NCBI RefSeq assembly: GCF_041361345.1
Contig: NZ_JBGKAD010000001.1
Span: 682,001-746,000 of the forward strand
From: Halobaculum sp. MBLA0147
GTDB lineage: Archaea > Halobacteriota > Halobacteria > Halobacteriales > Haloferacaceae
DNA: 64,000 bases
Direction of reading: 5' to 3'
Shown here piece by piece: positions 13,811-59,662 of the stretch. The number at the start of each line of letters is the position of its first letter. Within the stretch, counting starts at the first letter, position 1. Both the position numbers and the translations under genes were made by a program. The notes under the pieces are model-generated. The model saw only the letters and a program-made list of their open reading frames with translations. It did not search any database and was not told the DNA's origin.

Positions 13811-15247
13811 ATGGCAGACCGATTCCGTGGGACGGACGAGCTCGTCGCCACGCTGGCGGACGCGACGTTCGAGCAGCCACCGGCAGTCGTCGCCAACGCA
13901 CACGTCACCGGCGTGAGCGTCGCGCGGGCGCTGTCGGCGCTGGACGTGCCGGTGATCGCGGTCGACCGGAACGGGGACGGCGTCGCCCCGTCGTCGACGG
14001 CGGTCGACTACGCGGGGGAGGTGCGCTACCCACTCGACGATCCAGACGGCTTCGAGACGGACCTCGCGCGGGTCGTCGACGCCGTCGGCACGGACGTGGT
14101 CGCGTTCGGCTGTATGGACGAGTGGGTGCGCGCGTTCGCCGCCGCCGACGTGGAGGGGCTGCGGCTCCCCTTCGACCCGGACGCCGCCGACCGAGTGCTC
14201 GACAAGGCGACACTGTATCGTCTCGCCGACGAACACGGCGTGCCGTACCCGGAGACGCGCGACCTGACCGAGACGGACGCGGACGCGGCGATCGAGGCGG
14301 TCGGCGGGTTCCCGCTGGTGATCAAGCCCGCCCGGAAGCGGAAGTTCGAGGAGGCGTTCGGGACGAACGTCGTCGAGGCGAGCGACCGCGCGGAGTTCGA
14401 CGAGACCGTCGCGGCCGCCCGCGACGCCGACGCGCGGGTGCTCGTCCAAGAGAAGGTCCCCGTCGAGACGGGGCGCGACACCTCGCTGGCGTCGTACGTC
14501 CCGCCGAGCGACGGCGCCTCGTACGCCGGTGTCGGGCGACGAGGTGACGACGACCCGCTGACACGACACGACGCGCTGGGCGTCGTCGGCAACGCCGCGG
14601 TGCGGTTCCCACAGGGGTTCGGCACCTCCTGTCTCGTCGAGACCGTCGACCGACCCGCCATCGCCGAGCGGGCGCTGACGATCCTCGACGAGACGGGCTA
14701 CCACGGGATCAGCGAGGCGGAGTTCGTCTACGACGCCGACCGCGAGACGTACGTCCTGCTGGACGTGAACACCCGTCCGTGGAAGTGGGTCTCCGCCCCC
14801 GTCGAAGCCGGAGCGAACCTCCCGGCGGCGGCGTACTGTGACGCCGTCCCGGAGAGTGGTGCGACACTGTCGGACACTGACGGCGACGGGCGGGCGGTCG
14901 CCGCGGACGGCGACACGAACCCGCCGAGTGGCGACGACACGAACCCGCCGAGTGGCGACGACACGAACCCGCCGAGTGGCGACGACACGAACCCGTCGAG
15001 TGGCGACGGGACACTCGTCGTCGACGACGCGCGGTGGGTGTTCCTCCCAGACTACCTGGAGTTGTGTGCGACGACGCCCGGGTTCCGCGACGTGCTCTCG
15101 CGCGCGGAGTGGACCGCCTTGCTGTCGGGCGCGTTCGAGACCGAGCGGGGACTGACGACCGGCGTCTACCGACCGTCCGACCCCGAGCCCGCGGTGACGG
15201 CGCTCGAACGGGCGTTCGGCGTCGGCGAGTACTACTGCGCCTGCTGA
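13811..15247 (+). CDS. ATP-grasp carboxylate-amine ligase
   Basis: The 478-residue ATP-grasp enzyme has an N-terminal pre-ATP-grasp domain (PPAVVANAHVTGVSVARALS, DVVAFGCMDEWVRAF), a lid with GGFPLVIKPARKRKFEE, ATP-binding VLVQEKVPVE and a metal site in YVLLDVNTRPWKW. It resembles proteins annotated as carboxylate-amine ligases or carbamoylphosphate synthase-like; the ligated substrates are not known. Near residue 370 the domain is interrupted by four copies of the octapeptide DTNPPSGD, coded by 24-bp tandem repeats. The protein ends in CAC. Confidence 0.85.
   Translation: MADRFRGTDELVATLADATFEQPPAVVANAHVTGVSVARALSALDVPVIAVDRNGDGVAPSSTAVDYAGEVRYPLDDPDGFETDLARVVDAVGTDVVAFGCMDEWVRAFAAADVEGLRLPFDPDAADRVLDKATLYRLADEHGVPYPETRDLTETDADAAIEAVGGFPLVIKPARKRKFEEAFGTNVVEASDRAEFDETVAAARDADARVLVQEKVPVETGRDTSLASYVPPSDGASYAGVGRRGDDDPLTRHDALGVVGNAAVRFPQGFGTSCLVETVDRPAIAERALTILDETGYHGISEAEFVYDADRETYVLLDVNTRPWKWVSAPVEAGANLPAAAYCDAVPESGATLSDTDGDGRAVAADGDTNPPSGDDTNPPSGDDTNPPSGDDTNPSSGDGTLVVDDARWVFLPDYLELCATTPGFRDVLSRAEWTALLSGAFETERGLTTGVYRPSDPEPAVTALERAFGVGEYYCAC
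14912..15007 (+). repeat. In-frame 24-bp minisatellite
   Basis: Four direct copies at 14912, 14936, 14960 and 14984 encode DTNPPSGD four times within the ATP-grasp ligase. The first three are identical and the last has one C-to-T change (Pro to Ser). The unit length keeps the frame. Confidence 0.95.
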
Positions 15248-16538: not shown

Positions 16539-16994
16539 GTGCCGATCTACTCGGTGAAGACCACCGCCAGCCAGGAGCGGACGGTGGCGGACATGGTTGC
16601 GACGAAGGACGAACCGTCGATCCACGCCGCGTTGGCGCCGGACCAACTCACCAGCTACGTGATGGTGGAGGCGGACGACGACGCCGCCATCCGTCGCGTG
16701 CTGGAGGAGATCCCCCACGCCCGTGGGCTCGTCGAGGGGCCAGACGGCGAGGCGGGTCGCTCGTCGATGTCGGAAGTCGAGCACTTCCTCTCGCCGACTC
16801 CGGACGTGGAGGGGATCGCGGAGGGCGACATCGTGGAGCTGATCGCCGGGCCGTTCAAGGGCGAGAAGGCGCAGGTCCAGCGGATCGACGAGGGCAAAGA
16901 CCAGGTGACGGTGGAGCTGTACGAGGCGACGGTGCCGATCCCGGTGACGGTCCGTGGGGACCAGATCCGCGTGTTGGACAGCGACGAGCGGTGA
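16539..16994 (+). CDS. spt5: Transcription elongation factor Spt5 (NusG homologue)
   Basis: The 151-residue protein has an N-terminal NGN domain (MPIYSVKTTASQERTVADMV, LTSYVMVEADD) and a C-terminal KOW domain (IAEGDIVELIAGPFKGEKAQVQRID). It binds the RNA polymerase clamp with Spt4 and promotes processivity. The GTG start at 16539 directly follows the secE stop. The KOW domain is followed within a few bases by a long array of hairpins (16998-17405), which may shape the 3' end of this transcript. Confidence 0.95.
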   Translation: MPIYSVKTTASQERTVADMVATKDEPSIHAALAPDQLTSYVMVEADDDAAIRRVLEEIPHARGLVEGPDGEAGRSSMSEVEHFLSPTPDVEGIAEGDIVELIAGPFKGEKAQVQRIDEGKDQVTVELYEATVPIPVTVRGDQIRVLDSDER

Positions 16995-16997
16995 ATT

Positions 16998-17405
16998 CGT
17001 GGTCGACCGGAGGGAGACCACGGTAGGCGAACGGGGAGCGAAGCGACCCGTGAGCCGTCCGAAGGGAAGCGCTCGCTACAGTCGAGCGGCGAGTGTAACG
17101 AGCCGCGAGACAGTGACGAGCGGTGAGAGCGAGGCCGACCGGAGGGAGGCTTCGGAAGGCGAACGGGGAGCGAAGCGACCCGTGAGCCGTCCGGAGGGAA
17201 GCGCTCGCTACAGTCGAGCGGTGACCTCGTGGTCGACCGGAGGGAGACCACGGTAGACGAGCGGCGAACGAAGTGAGCCGCGAGTGCGAGGCTGAGCGGA
17301 GCGAGGCCTCGATGAGCCGAGCGGTGTGACCGCGAGGGTCGTGTGGTCGACCAGAGAGAACACGATCGACGAGCGGCGAACGGGGAGCGGAGCGACCCGT
17401 GAGCC
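16998..17405 (+). repeat. Hairpin array with conserved 11-nt GNA loops
   Basis: This 450-bp gap has no gene. It holds a chain of inverted repeats: 16998-17022, 17031-17051, 17131-17153, 17163-17183, 17228-17252, 17261-17281, 17287-17311, 17339-17365 and 17380-17400. Stems differ (CGTGGTC, ACGGG, GAGGCC, GCGGC, CGAGGCT and others). The loop, however, is always an 11-mer of the form GANCGRAGNGA (gaccggaggga, gagcgaagcga, gaacgaagtga, gagcggagcga); one copy is degenerate. Two blocks are also direct duplications (16997-17026 with 17227-17256; 17027-17090 with 17157-17220, one mismatch). Two other hairpins (CGCTC/GAGCG) are interspersed. Confidence 0.85.
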
Positions 17406-17442
17406 GACGCAGGAAGCGCTCGCGACCGGCGAGGGACCCCGG

Positions 17443-18699
17443 TCAGTTCTCTCCCGAGCGCTCCTCGCCCGTCGAGTCGTCACTCTCGGCTCCGTCGACG
17501 GCACCCGCGTCCGCCGCTCCGTCCGCCCCGTAGGCGTCGGGATCGGTCGCGAACGGGTCGGCGACCAACCGGACGCCGACGGTGACGAGCAGCGCGAGAG
17601 AGCCGAGGCCGGCCAGCGTCGCGACCGGCCCCACCCACTCCGCGGCGACGCCGCCGACCGCGCGAGCACCGGCGTACACGAGTCCACTCCCGAGACTCGC
17701 GACACTGAGGACCGTCGCGCGGCCGTCGCTCGGAAGCCGGTCGTTGAGGAACTGACTTCGAAGAGGGTAGACGATCCGGTTTCCGGCGCGGATCGCGACG
17801 TACGCCGGGAGGACGAGTGCAGGGACGACGACTGCCGTGGCCATCGGCAGAGAGAAACAGCCGGCGGCGACGAGAATTCCACCACTCGTACCGAGCCACT
17901 GTCGGAGGTCGTCGACCACGTACGAGACAGCCGCACCCCAGAGCATCAGCCCCGCGTACAGCGGCCCGAACAACTCCGTTGACACACCTGCGTCGCGGGC
18001 GAGTGGCTGGAGAAACACGGTCGCGACCTCTCGGAAAGACAACAACAGCGTCGTCACGACGAGCCCCGTCCCGAGTGGGTGTGTCGGGAAGCGCTCGCGG
18101 GCGACCGCCCAGGCGTCGGCGAAGGCGAACTCGTCGTCACCCGCCGCGTCCACCGACGGGAGGCCGACCAGCCACACGGCACCGAGCCCGGTCGTGACCG
18201 CCGCCGCGAGGAACGGCCACTCGCGGTTCGCGTCGTACAGCACGCCGCCGGGCAACGCCATCGCCGCGCTGCTGGCGAAGAACGCGGTGCCGCTGCGCGA
18301 CTGGACGCGGGTGAACGCGTCCGCGGCGTCGCGTTCGGCCAAGGCGTCGTAGAGCCACGCGCCGCCGCTGCCGGACCGGAACGTCACCGCCACACCCCAC
18401 AGCCAGAAGACCGCGACGAACGCCGGGAGACTGCTCGCGACGGTGAACAGCACCATCGTCGTGGAGACGAGCGCGGCGCTGACGATCAGACTGTTCCGGC
18501 GGCCCAGTCGGTCCCCGAGGTAGCCCGTGGGCACCTCGCCGAGGACGATCCCGAGGAAGAACGCCGCGTTCGCGAGGCCGAGTCCACGCAAGCCGAGCCC
18601 GCGTGCCTGGAGGTAGAGGTTCACGACGGGGTAGACGAACCCCTCCGGCACCAACGCCCGGTAGACGTAGTACCGCTCCGCGAGTCCCAGCCACCCCAT
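17443..18699 (-). CDS. MFS transporter
   Basis: A 418-residue major facilitator permease. Signature loops are GYLGDRLGRRNSLI (after helix 2) and a Gly/Ala-rich second half. About 12 helices are visible, with an acidic C-terminal tail (DDSTGEERSGEN). The ATG at 18699 (MGWLGLAERYYVYRAL) gives a plausible start. The gene for cytidine deaminase begins upstream on the same strand with about 24 bp between, so a nucleoside-related substrate is possible but unproven. Confidence 0.85.
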   Translation of the reverse strand: MGWLGLAERYYVYRALVPEGFVYPVVNLYLQARGLGLRGLGLANAAFFLGIVLGEVPTGYLGDRLGRRNSLIVSAALVSTTMVLFTVASSLPAFVAVFWLWGVAVTFRSGSGGAWLYDALAERDAADAFTRVQSRSGTAFFASSAAMALPGGVLYDANREWPFLAAAVTTGLGAVWLVGLPSVDAAGDDEFAFADAWAVARERFPTHPLGTGLVVTTLLLSFREVATVFLQPLARDAGVSTELFGPLYAGLMLWGAAVSYVVDDLRQWLGTSGGILVAAGCFSLPMATAVVVPALVLPAYVAIRAGNRIVYPLRSQFLNDRLPSDGRATVLSVASLGSGLVYAGARAVGGVAAEWVGPVATLAGLGSLALLVTVGVRLVADPFATDPDAYGADGAADAGAVDGAESDDSTGEERSGEN

Positions 18700-48482: not shown

Positions 48483-49666
48483 TGGACCCCCTCCAGAACG
48501 GCGTCCAACAGGTCGTCGGCACCGAATCGGAGCGGGTCCGTGGCGGGTGCGCCGAGGTCTGCGCCGAACGCCTCGACCGCCTCTCGGGCGCGCTCGTCGT
48601 CGTCGACCGCTCGCGTGTTCAGGGCGCCGCCGACGACCGTCGTCTCGTGGACGGGTGCCGCGAGCGACTCGTAGAGGTCGACGTACTCCGGGATCGGAGG
48701 GAGCGGGGTGTCCTCGTAGCCGTGGATCCGCTCGCGACCCGCCGCGTGACACAACACGAGCCCGTCCGGCATCGCTCCGTGGAGGAGGCCGCAGGTCACG
48801 GCGGAGTAGGCCGGGTGGACGATACTCCCCTGCCCCTCCACGAGGAGGAGATCGTGGTCGTCGCCGACGTCCCGGATCATCTCCTCGACGGAGCCGGCGG
48901 TGAAGTCCGAGACGACTCTGTCGACCGGGTTCCCCCACCCTTCGATCAGGATGCCAGTCTGTCCCGTCGGGATCACACGGGCGTCGAGGCCGGCCCGGTC
49001 CGCGGCCGCAGCCAACTCCATCGTGGTGGTCATCTTCCCGACGGAACAGTCGGTGCCGACCGTCGCCACCACGTCGGCGCGCACCTCGTCGGCGGTGCCG
49101 CTCGCGACGGTCAGATCGTCGTGTGGGCGGCGCACGTCGCGGAGTTCGGTACCGTGCTCGGCCGCGAGGGCGGCGAACTCCTCGTCGTCGTTCAGGAAGT
49201 AGTGGAGGCCGGCGGCCACGTCACACCCCGCCTCGATGGCCGCGCGGACGTCCGGGCGCCACGACTCGTCGAAGCCGCCGCCGATGGGTGCGATCCCGAT
49301 CACCAGCTCGTCGATCGGGCCGTCGGCGGCGGCGCGTGCCGCGGCGAAGTCCGCGACGATCGGTGCGTCCTGTGTGTCTCGGAGGTGGGCCGCGACCCGT
49401 TCGCCCGCGTGGTCGCGGTCCAGCACGGCGACGACCTCACGGTCCGTGTACCGTAAGAGCCCGTTGGCCGTCTTCGACCGCTCCGGGAACTTCTCGTGGG
49501 CGAGCACGACGACGCGTTCTGTCGCGGTCTCGCTCTCGGTGTGGTCCGTCGCGGTCTCGCTCTCGGTGTGGTCCGTCGCGGTCTCGCTCTCGGTGTGGTC
49601 CGTCGCGGTCTCGCTCTCGATGTCGTCCGTCGCAGGCTCGCCGTCGGTGTCGTCCGTCGCTGTCAC
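48479..49666 (-). CDS. dgcN: DUF1611 protein (DgcN-like D-glutamate N-acetyltransferase)
   Basis: The 395-residue protein has about 50 acidic N-terminal residues made of four TDHTESETA-type repeats. A first domain (VVVLAHEKFPERSKTANGLL, VVAVLDRDHAGERVA) follows. The second is a P-loop-like domain with VVATVGTDCSVGKMTTTMEL and LLLVEGQGSIVHPAYSAV. The family was shown in marine bacteria to be a D-glutamate N-acetyltransferase (DgcN). The product gene dgcA follows with a 4-bp overlap. GTG start at 49666. Confidence 0.85.
   Translation of the reverse strand: MTATDDTDGEPATDDIESETATDHTESETATDHTESETATDHTESETATERVVVLAHEKFPERSKTANGLLRYTDREVVAVLDRDHAGERVAAHLRDTQDAPIVADFAAARAAADGPIDELVIGIAPIGGGFDESWRPDVRAAIEAGCDVAAGLHYFLNDDEEFAALAAEHGTELRDVRRPHDDLTVASGTADEVRADVVATVGTDCSVGKMTTTMELAAAADRAGLDARVIPTGQTGILIEGWGNPVDRVVSDFTAGSVEEMIRDVGDDHDLLLVEGQGSIVHPAYSAVTCGLLHGAMPDGLVLCHAAGRERIHGYEDTPLPPIPEYVDLYESLAAPVHETTVVGGALNTRAVDDDERAREAVEAFGADLGAPATDPLRFGADDLLDAVLEGVQ
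49521..49628 (-). repeat. In-frame 27-bp minisatellite
   Basis: Four tandem copies start at 49521, 49548, 49575 and 49602. The first three are identical (gtcgcggtctcgctctcgg then tgtggtcc); the last has two changes. They encode the acidic repeats TDHTESETA at the N-terminus of the DgcN-like protein. Confidence 0.95.
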
Positions 49667-51749: not shown

Positions 51750-52068
51750 GGGGCGGCGTCTCCTGGCAGTGTCGTACGGCTGTAAAATCGTCGCCGGGAC
51801 TCGGCTCCTCCTCGGGCGGCCGGAGGCGGGGAGACGGCGGTGTTCAGACGAGCTGCTGGTTTGCAGGTGGCGCGCGAGGAACGCGCGAGGGTCTCGCGAA
51901 CGAAGTGAGTGAGACCTCGTCAGAACGTGCTCTGACGTAGGAGAAGCGAGCGCAGCGGGCGAGGCACGGCGGAGCCACGCACGAGCGACGAGGCTGGGGA
52001 GAGAGAGAGAGGTGCTGTGCGAGGTGGATCGGAGGCTCTCGATCGGTAGTCTCGTCCAACTGCCTACC
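51750..52068. other. Hairpin-rich region next to the CRISPR trailer end
   Basis: There is no gene. A strong hairpin, ggtctcgc, loop gaacgaagtga, gtgagacc (51890-51916), carries the same 11-nt loop as the array downstream of spt5. A perfect inverted repeat cgtcaga/tctgacg follows (51918-51937), and shorter gcgcagc- and gcggagc-centred hairpins lie at about 51948-51977. A run of ga dinucleotides is at 52000-52010. A short AT-poor spacer then leads into the decayed last CRISPR repeat. Confidence 0.75.
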
Positions 52069-54692
52069 CTTATCCGAACACTACTGGTTTCCTGGGCCGC
52101 TGCGACCCCCTCTCCACGGTGAACTTCACGTCCCCAGAGAGGTGTTTCAATCCCGGTGTGGGTTTCCTGGGCCGCTGCGACCCGCGAGTGTCTCCGCGTC
52201 GATCTCATCAGACTGGTGTTTCAATCCCGGTGTGGGTTTCCTGGGCCGCTGCGACGTGAGGAACGTCGACAGTACTCTGGGGTGGCTTAAGTTTCAATCC
52301 CGGTGTGGGTTTCCTGGGCCGCTGCGACGATCACTCCAGACCCGGCCACACTCGTGACACTCGACGTTTCAATCCCGGTGTGGGTTTCCTGGGCCACTGC
52401 GACGGGAAGAACCCGCGCGGGTTCATCGTCGGGGCGATGTTTCAATCCCGGTGTGGGTTTCCTGGGCCGCTGCGACCCAGGCCGCGGTCGCCGGGAGGAG
52501 CGGGAGGAACAGTTTCAATCCCGGTGTGGGTTTCCTGGGCCGCTGCGACTACCTGTTGCTGCCCGGTGTCGCGGTGCACGAACTGTTTCAATCCCGGTGT
52601 GGGTTTCCTGGGCCGCTGCGACCCGACATCGAGGCGAACGCTGCCGAACAGCGACGGAAGTTTCAATCCCGGTGTGGGTTTCCTGGGCCGCTGCGACTCC
52701 ATCGCGTGGATGTCGAGGTACAGCTCGGAGAGTTTCAATCCCGGTGTGGGTTTCCTGGGCCGCTGCGACGTACCTGTGCGAAGTCCGTCGCCGTCGCGGG
52801 CAAGGTTTCAATCCCGGTGTGGGTTTCCTGGGCCGCTGCGACAGTGCGATCTTCAGTCTGATCGCGGTGGTGGTGATCGTGTTTCAGTCCCGGTGTGGGT
52901 TTCCTGGGCCGCTGCGACCAGGAGATCCGTCAGATCGTGCGCGACGAGATCCAGGTTTCAATCCCGGTGTGGGTTTCCTGGGCCGCTGCGACGGGACGCC
53001 CCACTTTCCACGCGGGTCGGTCGACGGGTGTTTCAATCCCGGTGTGGGTTTCCTGGGCCGCTGCGACGCACGCCGTAGTTGATGACGGCGAAGCCCGGCA
53101 GGTTTCAATCCCGGTGTGGGTTTCCTGGGCCGCTGCGACCGGAACGGGTCGCTCGACGTGTCGTCCGACGACCGTTTCAATCCCGGTGTGGGTTTCCTGG
53201 GCCGCTGCGACCCCAGTGAGGTCGTAGAAGACGGCTCGAGGCTGCTGTGTTTCAATCCCGGTGTGGGTTTCCTGGGCCGCTGCGACCGTACGATCTCGAA
53301 GCAGAGTTCCCCGCCGAGTCGCGTTTCAATCCCGGTGTGGGTTTCCTGGGCCGCTGCGACTGCAGTGGCAAGAGAAGATGCGGGACGCGGACCCGTGTTT
53401 CAATCCCGGTGTGGGTTTCCTGGGCCGCTGCGACCGTAGCATCTCGGCTTTCCCACGCTTCCCGAGGCCCTCGTTTCAATCCCGGTGTGGGTTTCCTGGG
53501 CCGCTGCGACGGTTCGGCGGCGTGCTCCACACAACGCCGTCGGGTTTCAATCCCGGTGTGGGTTTCCTGGGCCGCTGCGACATCCGGATCTCCTCTTTCG
53601 GGTTTTGGTGTGAGACTGTTTCAATCCCGGTGTGGGTTTCCTGGGCCGCTGCGACGTGCCGAGGGCAACGTCCGCGGCACGCTGTCGGTCGAGTTTCAAT
53701 CCCGGTGTGGGTTTCCTGGGCCGCTGCGACAGTTCGTCGACGCGATCGATCACTGCCTGTAGCTGGTCGTTTCAATCCCGGTGTGGGTTTCCTGGGCCGC
53801 TGCGACACCGCGTACGGTCTCGGAGACGCTCCACCAACGAGTTTCAATCCCGGTGTGGGTTTCCTGGGCCGCTGCGACGTGTCTCCCGTCTGCTCTCCCT
53901 GGACAACGACGAGTTTCAATCCCGGTGTGGGTTTCCTGGGCCGCTGCGACCGGGTAGAGCTCTCCCTCGACGCCACGGATCACCACGGTTTCAATCCCGG
54001 TGTGGGTTTCCTGGGCCGCTGCGACGGAGAAGTCTGTCCTCAGCACCCTACTCCGGAGATCTAGTTTCAATCCCGGTGTGGGTTTCCTGGGCCGCTGCGA
54101 CGCCGCCGCTCCCGCCCCCTCCGCTCGGATCATCTCGTTTCAATCCCGGTGTGGGTTTCCTGGGCCGCTGCGACTGAACGTCCAGATGCAGGTGGGGAAC
54201 CTCACGAACTGTTTCAATCCCGGTGTGGGTTTCCTGGGCCGCTGCGACAGCGGATCTCGTCGGTTCGGTCGTTCCAGATCTCGTTTCAATCCCGGTGTGG
54301 GTTTCCTGGGCCGCTGCGACGGGCGAAGGCGAGTCGGCCGCACCGTTAGGTCACATGTTTCAATCCCGGTGTGGGTTTCCTGGGCCGCTGCGACAGAGCC
54401 TCCTGCGAAGCGTGACCTCCCTGTTTGTAGTTTCAATCCCGGTGTGGGTTTCCTGGGCCGCTGCGACGTGTCGCCCTCCGAACTCCTCCGTCGAGGAGAC
54501 TTCCGGTTTCAATCCCGGTGTGGGTTTCCTGGGCCGCTGCGACCTTCGCGGGCGCTAAACCGCTGTATACAGCGGTATACGTTTCAATCCCGGTGTGGGT
54601 TTCCTGGGCCGCTGCGACGCACCTGGGCGACGGCGACGAACACGAGACGTTCCTGTTTCAATCCCGGTGTGGGTTTCCTGGGCCGCTGCGAC
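52069..54692 (-). CRISPR. CRISPR array, subtype I-D, 35 repeats + 1 decayed
   Basis: The 38-nt repeat begins gtttcaatcccggtg and ends gggccgctgcgac on the plus strand; 35 copies start at 52144, 52218, 52291 and so on to 54655. Spacers are 33-38 nt. The minus strand ends in attgaaac, the 8-nt handle of type I-D repeats, so crRNAs are read on the minus strand. The repeat at 52069-52106 keeps only its gggtttcc...gcgac half and marks the trailer end; the leader is at 54693-54801. Two internal repeats differ at one base (gggccActgc near 52396; gtttcaGtcc at 52881). Confidence 0.98.
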
Positions 54693-54801
54693 AGGGGGTG
54701 AATTCTGCCCCACACTACCTATAGTTTGCTCTCGACCCGTCACGTTCGACCCGCGTTACGTGGACCCCCGCCGTACAGAGCCTTCAAAAAGGTCCACGTA
54801 A
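54693..54801 (-). promoter_or_regulatory. CRISPR leader with promoter and inverted repeat
   Basis: Between the newest repeat and the csa3-like stop codon lies the leader. On the minus strand an AT-rich aaactatagg (about 54718-54727) sits about 28-33 bp before the first repeat and is the likely TATA element, placing transcription start at the repeat edge. A perfect 12-bp inverted repeat (gttacgtggacc at 54755-54766; ggtccacgtaac at 54791-54802) frames a 24-nt centre with a T5 run. It could bind the CARF regulator encoded beside it or end that gene's transcript. Confidence 0.8.
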
Positions 54802-59111: not shown

Positions 59112-59662
59112 CACGAGAGACACACGACACGATCTCGACGCTCGCCGAGCGAGCGTTCGACGCGATCAGACCAGCTTCGAGGAATAAAAAGCCGTACGCC
59201 ATCGAGCGCGTCTTCCGCGAGAGCGTGAAGGCGATCAAGGGGTTCGGCCCGCGCGAGCCGTCGCGACAGGACGCGATCGACGCCGTCGCCGGGCGGATCG
59301 CCAAGCTTCCCGACCGGAGCGACCAAGTGTACCGCGTCGGCAGCGAGACGAGCGACAGCGGCGCTCGACTCGAGGAACGGATCGAGGCGTACGCCGAGTT
59401 CTTCGTCGACGAGGTGTTCCTCGGGCTGTTCGACGGCAAGCCCGCGCGGCTGAAACGCCGCGAGAACAACCTCGCCGACGGGTTCTACGCGGCGACGCGC
59501 CGCCTCCAGCGAGAGACGTTCGGCGACGACGCCGACGACTCGGCGGACGCCGACGAGACGGCGGACACGGACGGCACAGGCGGAACAGACGAGACGGCGG
59601 ACACGGACGGCACAGGCGGAACAGACGAGACGGCGGACGCGGACGAATCGGACGACGAGTGA
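59108..59662 (+). CDS. cas11d: Stand-alone Cas11d-like small subunit
   Basis: A 184-residue helical protein with an ATG overlapping the cas10d stop (ATGA). The core (about 1-135) reads KKPYAIERVFRESVKAIKGF, then helices ending FVDEVFLGLFDGKPARLKRR and NNLADGFYAATRRLQRE. This resembles the helical C-terminus of Cas10d from which cyanobacteria make Cas11d by internal translation. Here it is a separate gene, so the small subunit has its own reading frame. The last 45 residues are acidic repeats (DETADTDGTGGT) coded by 36-bp units. The Cas11 role is inferred from place and shape. Confidence 0.7.
   Translation: MTRETHDTISTLAERAFDAIRPASRNKKPYAIERVFRESVKAIKGFGPREPSRQDAIDAVAGRIAKLPDRSDQVYRVGSETSDSGARLEERIEAYAEFFVDEVFLGLFDGKPARLKRRENNLADGFYAATRRLQRETFGDDADDSADADETADTDGTGGTDETADTDGTGGTDETADADESDDE

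Follow-up and report, generated by a model that had tools for sequence, protein, structure and literature searches.

Several described systems come close to the locus reported here. In bacteria, REP and BIME sequences, which go with RAYT transposases, are short intergenic palindromes found in tens to hundreds of copies per genome (PMC2817692, PMC3733652). Haloquadratum walsbyi carries PATEs, SMRs and MITEs, elements with near-terminal palindromes or terminal inverted repeats, several of which have been tied to known transposons (PMC3119063). For transcript ends, a study of Haloferax volcanii describes hairpins upstream of mapped 3' ends at 503 sites, as well as one hairpin that caused termination of 59% of transcripts when tested (PMC7237163). 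Finally, the d(GCGAAGC) DNA mini-hairpin has a Tm of 78 C, according to a paper that also cites the work of Hirao and of Yoshizawa on GNA/GNNA mini-hairpins (PMC4686876).

The window analysed here is a stretch of 64,000 nucleotides from Halobaculum sp. MBLA0147. It contains a 448-bp gap, running from the stop codon of spt5 to the 3' end of a convergent MFS transporter gene, which houses nine hairpins at 16998-17400, all on the + strand and all where an earlier sequence-only reading had placed them. The features of the locus are given below, with gene boundaries that come from our own codon-usage gene caller and not from curated annotation.

16539..16994, + strand: spt5 gene (NGN and KOW domains; Pfam Spt5-NGN E=1.6e-17, KOW E=3.1e-9); gene call ends at 16994 and the stop codon precedes the array
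17443..18699, - strand: MFS transporter gene (Pfam MFS_1 E=3.2e-21), convergent to spt5 and, with its 3' end, the far limit of the array region
16998..17405, + strand: hairpin array; the GA strand is the spt5 sense strand
16977..17221, + strand: tandem duplication (TRF) of a 132-bp unit, 1.9 copies, 90% matches; includes hairpins 1-5
16998-17022, + strand: hairpin 1, cgtggtc-GA-cc[GGA]gg-GA-gaccacg; starts 4 nt past the spt5 stop codon; 30.0 bits with our covariance model (CM)
17031-17051 (CM 17029..17053), + strand: hairpin 2, GA-acggg-GA-gc[GAA]gc-GA-cccgt-GA, two GA/GA steps; CM 32.5 bits
17086-17106 (CM 17084..17108), + strand: hairpin 3, gcggc-GA-gt[GTA]ac-GA-gccgc, variant core with a T-A closing pair; CM 23.6 bits
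17134-17150 (CM 17130..17154), + strand: hairpin 4, gcc-GA-cc[GGA]gg-GA-ggc; CM 27.4 bits
17163-17183 (CM 17161..17185), + strand: hairpin 5, duplicate of hairpin 2; CM 32.5 bits
17228-17252, + strand: hairpin 6, same sequence as hairpin 1; CM 30.0 bits
17261-17281 (CM 17259..17283), + strand: hairpin 7, GA-gcggc-GA-ac[GAA]gt-GA-gccgc-GA; CM 34.4 bits, E=1.6e-8
17294-17304 (CM 17287..17311), + strand: hairpin 8, gaggct-GA-gc[GGA]gc-GA-ggcctc, one T-G pair beside the cap; CM 27.4 bits
17380-17400 (CM 17378..17402), + strand: hairpin 9, GA-acggg-GA-gc[GGA]gc-GA-cccgt-GA; CM 32.5 bits

Each of the nine hairpins has a GNA triloop on two inner pairs, below which comes a 2x2 internal loop of GA/GA; hairpins 2, 5, 7 and 9 carry a second, outer GA/GA step. 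The sequence-only reading had assigned every loop the 11-mer G-A-N-C-G-R-A-G-N'-G-A, with positions 3 and 9 (N and N') covarying, positions 4 and 8 always C and G, and a purine as the middle loop base. The covarying pairs c/g, g/c and a/t were found as described, and GANCGRAGN'GA with N/N' paired is exact in 8/9 hairpins. The claim gives way at 17086-17106 (GAGTGTAACGA), where the C-G closing pair of positions 4 and 8 has become T-A and the middle base is T; the other eight have R. Two hairpin types each recur three times within the array and, given the 132-bp tandem duplication, the nine hairpins amount to fewer than nine independent cases. The CM, built from 47 modules of three genomes with the window modules among its seeds, returns nine array matches at E<1e-4. 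A search of Rfam 15 found nothing around the array up to E=1, and at six motif-rich loci its only matches were rRNA and tRNA. The array has no counterpart in phage records and a single short match among plasmid records. Elsewhere in the window, a lone GA/GNA module lies at 51891-51915 (+; CM 28.8 bits, E=1.2e-6), about 230 nt before a repeat array at 52142-54694 that is CRISPR-like in appearance, and strong short tandem repeats occur at 14899-15008 (inside an open reading frame), 49521-49664 and 59534-59646.

One identity for such a region, an ordinary T-tract transcription terminator of spt5, is the most improbable of those considered. A GC-rich hairpin followed by a T run was found at 0 sites in 16900-17500, and this identity was rejected; the lack of a T-tract or terminator-like site also counts against the reading favoured below. 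Among modules with an outer stem of 3 or more, only 2/95 have TTTT within 14 nt. T-tracts do follow the GNA-capped hairpin after spt5 in Halorussus and in a Haloarculaceae genome, at once or after a second hairpin, the Halorussus spt5 module being followed by a second hairpin and then T-tracts. The 3'-end hairpins of Haloferax volcanii differ from the window array in the same respect, and no GA/GNA cap is named in the accessible part of that source (PMC7237163).

Bioinformatics can also reveal how far the motif departs from chance. It is far more frequent than in shuffled sequence, as the sequence-only reading supposed. In the Halobaculum genome itself, GANCGRAGNGA has 260 matches vs 52 for a reversed-pattern control, and N pairs with N' in 25/34 intergenic vs 9/46 coding matches (first 800 kb of contig C1). 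A motif-free search was made in three genera (the Halobaculum genome, G235, assigned to Halomicrobium by plasmid hits, and Halorubrum G134; genus names follow related named records) for intergenic hairpins made of at least 4 outer pairs, then a genuine 2x2 mismatch, and then two pairs closing a loop of three bases. GA/GA was the mismatch in 59 distinct hairpins, the strand opposite the GA strand showing the same 59 as TC/TC mismatches, and the next type reached 5. The loop was GNA in 48/59 of the GA/GA hairpins and, given NC[GNA]GN', the internal loop was GA/GA in 44, with every other type at most 1. Coding DNA showed no GA/GA-GNA pattern in this search, and the full motif count in Markov-resampled sequence was none. 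A fourth genome (G149) again put GA/GA in the lead, 6 vs 1. The extra outer GA/GA step that the sequence-only reading had seen in some stems is real, being the next mismatch in 23/51 modules with exactly two outer pairs. The purine of the loop holds less widely; beyond the window the middle base was G56, A47, C28 and T11, so that all four bases occur.

The innermost seven bases of the modules, N-C-G-N-A-G-N', are those of the GNA/GNNA mini-hairpins (PMC4686876). GNA is present in 9/9 window hairpins and C-G closure in 8/9, the sheared G-A pair being predicted from sequence. However, the mini-hairpins are a physical motif worked out on oligonucleotides, whereas here the motif is set in GA/GA steps, repeated through genomes and known from the letters of the DNA alone. 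C-G-closed GNA triloops are extraordinarily stable as DNA mini-hairpins (PMC4686876), and this favours a possible, if doubtful, explanation in which single-stranded DNA is what matters. The GA strand would extrude during replication or supercoiling as d(NC-GNA-GN') mini-hairpins containing tandem G-A pairs of the sheared type, and a DNA protein would bind or cut them, as with REP hairpins. GNA is the preferred triloop while the RNA-type UUCG or GNRA tetraloops are not enriched, and the context of the cap is mostly pyrimidine-GA-purine, both of which suit DNA; loop types across all 3'-end hairpins form an uninformative background for choosing between DNA and RNA. Against it, no candidate protein was found, and inspection by eye of the matches in the complete genome of Halorubrum G134 revealed no replication-strand bias of the kind that a lagging-strand DNA structure would leave (34 + vs 37 -, intermixed). 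The + strand of the array, which is the GA strand, has a fold z of -8.4 with RNA vs -3.8 with DNA parameters (complementary strand: -5.3 RNA, -3.4 DNA), although the DNA energy set may model GNA loops and tandem GA poorly.

The module is spread across the haloarchaea. GAACGRAGTGA was found in 193/194 haloarchaeal genomes, typically in 10 to 50 copies vs 0 to 2 for the control, and a CM search across haloarchaea, which the sequence-only reading had proposed as a check, gave 1 to 46 matches per genome in 19/19 haloarchaeal genomes. Other members of the phylum have mostly none or few CM matches, and enrichment in Methanosarcinales and other Halobacteriota is weak at most. No description of the motif was found in open-licence papers searched for the motif letters, REP/MITE and haloarchaeal repeats. 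The array is best read as a local expansion of a haloarchaea-wide module of the form outer stem / GA-AG / N-C[GNA]G-N' / GA-AG / outer stem, and the fact that almost all haloarchaeal genomes searched carry the cap between genes suggests a widespread structural element of putative function.

As high-copy intergenic imperfect palindromes, the modules resemble REP and BIME sequences. Both occur as single copies and in arrays, both have interrupted stems, and in both the stem residues vary between subfamilies while complementarity is kept (PMC2817692, PMC3733652). RAYT-type REPs have a GTAG (or CGTC) tetranucleotide at one end of the palindrome and flank a RAYT gene, and some Halomicrobium units start with GTAG as well. 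It is nevertheless very unlikely that the modules are REPs mobilised by RAYT or IS200-IS605 enzymes, or Haloquadratum-type PATEs, with the cap a coincidence. There is no fixed GTAG head and no linked Y1/RAYT gene, the cap is conserved instead of the stem, the window array has all its modules in one orientation, and a sense bias exists beside stop codons. Among modules with stems of 7 or more, GTAGG heads number 3/28 in G235, 2/22 in a further genome (G537) and 0/9 among the modules listed for the Halobaculum genome. The Y1 transposase family PF01797 is absent from three of the motif-richest genomes tested (G195, G175 and G196), two motif-poor genomes have 5 and 10 Y1 matches, and the surroundings (1.5 kb) of the ten Y1 matches inspected contain no module. 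A RAYT-type REP was rejected on the absence of Y1 from these three motif-rich genomes, the distance of modules from Y1 and the rarity of GTAG heads. The PATEs, SMRs and MITEs are alike in being transposase-free haloarchaeal repeats, some with palindromes (PMC3119063), but the array units have no common outer sequence; their stems vary freely and the cap alone is common to the copies.

The paired positions of the modules covary. Over 172 distinct intergenic modules, N and N' pair in 83% vs 37% expected. In the 142 with N/N' paired, all eight outer positions examined pair above expectation and most show all four pair types, while control registers shifted by one are mostly at or near expected pairing. 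The alignment of 47 modules has a covariation score of 0.88 vs 0.18 in shuffles; as these modules had been selected for at least 4 outer pairs, the unbiased test is the adjacent pair further out. This column pair (3/23), which lay outside the selection criterion, pairs in 41/47 with four pair types. Changes can also be followed between orthologous arrays of two Halomicrobium species, where a compensated change turns gggtggttcc/ggaaccacc into gggtgattcc/ggaatcacc and an N/N' pair goes from G-C to C-G. Stems in homologous loci thus keep their pairing after substitution, as the sequence-only reading had anticipated.

The same two genomes show how quickly the arrays turn over. Along a syntenic stretch of about 42 kb every multi-hairpin array differs, with 11 vs 5, 2 vs 5 and 6 vs 4 modules per orthologous array, and one array, in a 280-bp gap, faces a 43-bp gap in the other genome. 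At one orthologous site the whole stem has been replaced (ggcggggcgc to ggtggttct). Orthologous arrays gain, lose and swap units quickly; moreover, arrays alternate two hairpin types and identical units reappear at different loci, which suggests duplication and exchange. Two further observations concern a gene end in this pair (G235:C1:204264-204644). The gene with the abutting array ends in TAG and its orthologue without an array in TGA, and several array units themselves start with TAGG.

Palindromes could alternatively arise by mutation and not by selection. From general knowledge of quasipalindrome template switching, we infer that a nascent strand ending in GA-NCGNAGN'-GA could fold on itself and prime copying of its own upstream sequence, giving a perfect but arbitrary outer stem; the arrays would then duplicate and recombine, and a host function would be unnecessary. 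A nearly invariant cap with arbitrary yet perfect outer stems is what such a process would leave, and the replaced stem and the fast changes in unit number fit it as well. So does the count of G-T cells in the outer stems (8 vs 10 for A-C), in which G-T is no commoner than A-C; purifying selection on RNA would not be expected to produce such counts, and the equal rarity of the two cells also suits single-stranded DNA. However, single-pair compensations are seen between orthologous units, and alone the process leaves the stop-codon polarity, the spt5 hotspot and the retention in 193/194 genomes unexplained. We consider it distinctly unlikely. The view of the sequence-only reading that the repeats reflect selection on structure and are not random holds for structure, given the excess over shuffles and the covarying stems; for selection itself it is less secure, given the G-T and A-C counts and the whole stems swapped between species at one site.

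What neither single-stranded DNA nor template switching by itself would lead one to expect is the relation of the modules to transcription. With each intergenic region scored a single time across five genome stretches plus the named spt5 loci, there are 13 regions in which a module no more than 20 nt from a gene end is sense-oriented behind a stop codon and 0 in which it is antisense (p=0.00024, in a small sample of genomes that are partly non-independent, two being Halomicrobium species). Sense exceeds antisense by 20 to 7 within 50 nt and by 33 to 13 within 100 nt. Such polarity is not expected of a pure DNA element. Several Halomicrobium arrays begin at the stop codon itself; G149 shows polarity in the same direction, but its five intergenic paired modules are too few to give power. 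Farther than about 100 nt from gene ends, modules have no preferred orientation, a neutrality that would suit the DNA explanation, and an overall bias relative to the upstream gene in tandem gaps is absent (28 vs 29 and 18 vs 24). Many modules lie far from gene ends in this way, so the position at gene 3' ends that the sequence-only reading suggested describes those near stop codons, and "gene-end element" fits a subset only.

The gene spt5 is itself a hotspot. A survey of 80 named loci, mostly of 10 kb and centred on spt5 of other haloarchaea, placed most CM matches just behind spt5. A sense CM match was present in 7/73 spt5 3' regions vs 2/516 other gene ends, with p=1e-5, an optimistic value since the related species in the survey are not independent. 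The matches include two Halorussus, one Halorientalis and one Halostagnicola. An empty site was sought at spt5 in genomes of the same genus, but there homology breaks off with the spt5 stop codon and a different gene lies downstream, which leaves no clean comparison.

Taken with the folding scores, these results lead us to favour, tentatively and at close to even chances, the reading that the array consists of REP-like hairpin modules shared across the haloarchaea, and that their GA strand folds in RNA, as part of a 3' UTR or as a non-coding RNA. It is ranked first, by a modest margin, since a polarity that follows transcription has no easy alternative explanation. At gene 3' ends the mRNA has the sequence of the GA strand, and the first hairpin follows directly on the stop codon, so the array would be transcribed and would fold in the 3' UTR. 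From general knowledge of tandem sheared G-A pairing and of 3'-end structures, we infer that the GA strand would fold with its tandem G-A pairs and GNA triloop allowing stacking to continue through the interruptions. The 3' UTR would then form a series of stable hairpins and serve as a barrier at the 3' end, which may stabilise the mRNA or aid polymerase stopping in the convergent gene pair. Copies would multiply through tandem duplication and the exchange of hairpin units between arrays.

GNA-capped hairpins are also carried by an element of about 300 nt in Halorubrum, and this was counted in favour of the RNA reading. The element is multicopy (G134, L179:7200-7540, with about 30 further copies in 400 kb), and an element of this type also occurs in the Halobaculum genome on C1 near 64206, 101654, 244926, 560167 and 767807. 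Its layout is GCGCGAGGGAG ... GAGGCTGGGGAGG ... GGGACTxAAAGGGG-stem ... stem-GGGGCTTTGG. The stem covaries (27 distinct stems, mean 17 nt; GT 5, AC 0), and TATA-like sequences gave 32 matches over 34 element copies, most of them 130-190 nt ahead of GGGACT. The element has no Rfam match, and two other Halorubrum genomes lack part of it at the orthologous site; on its sequence features it is a candidate multicopy non-coding RNA. Its variable hairpin has triloops in 19/21, of mixed content, so GNA is not general in that hairpin. Downstream of the element, 57-bp tandem repeats occur in the L179 region and at G134:C1:85056-85225 and 359089-359317, each holding a piece of the element's 3' end, with TATTTATAA-like boxes at one locus. 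In the same genome, beside two tRNA-Asp genes (G134:C1:151700-152260), repeated tRNA 3'-end remnants (gttcaaatcccgctcc) alternate with GA/GNA modules.

An unlikely but more far-reaching proposal would join the arrays after stops and the multicopy non-coding RNAs in a dedicated haloarchaeal structural signal. Hairpins capped by GA-AG/GNA would be read by a clade-specific protein for their shape and not for their stem sequence, and the tandem G-A steps would be kept since the RNA hairpin stays continuous through them while the DNA palindrome is broken for safe replication.

Repeated palindromes are well known, but here it is a short structural cap that is conserved, with free stems, practically throughout an archaeal class. 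The modules are thus a natural experiment in selection versus palindrome-making mutation, and they bear on how hairpins of DNA compare with those of RNA in molar salt and on the ends of convergent genes in archaea. With a CM in hand and an spt5 site common to several genera, the module is directly testable in culturable haloarchaea.
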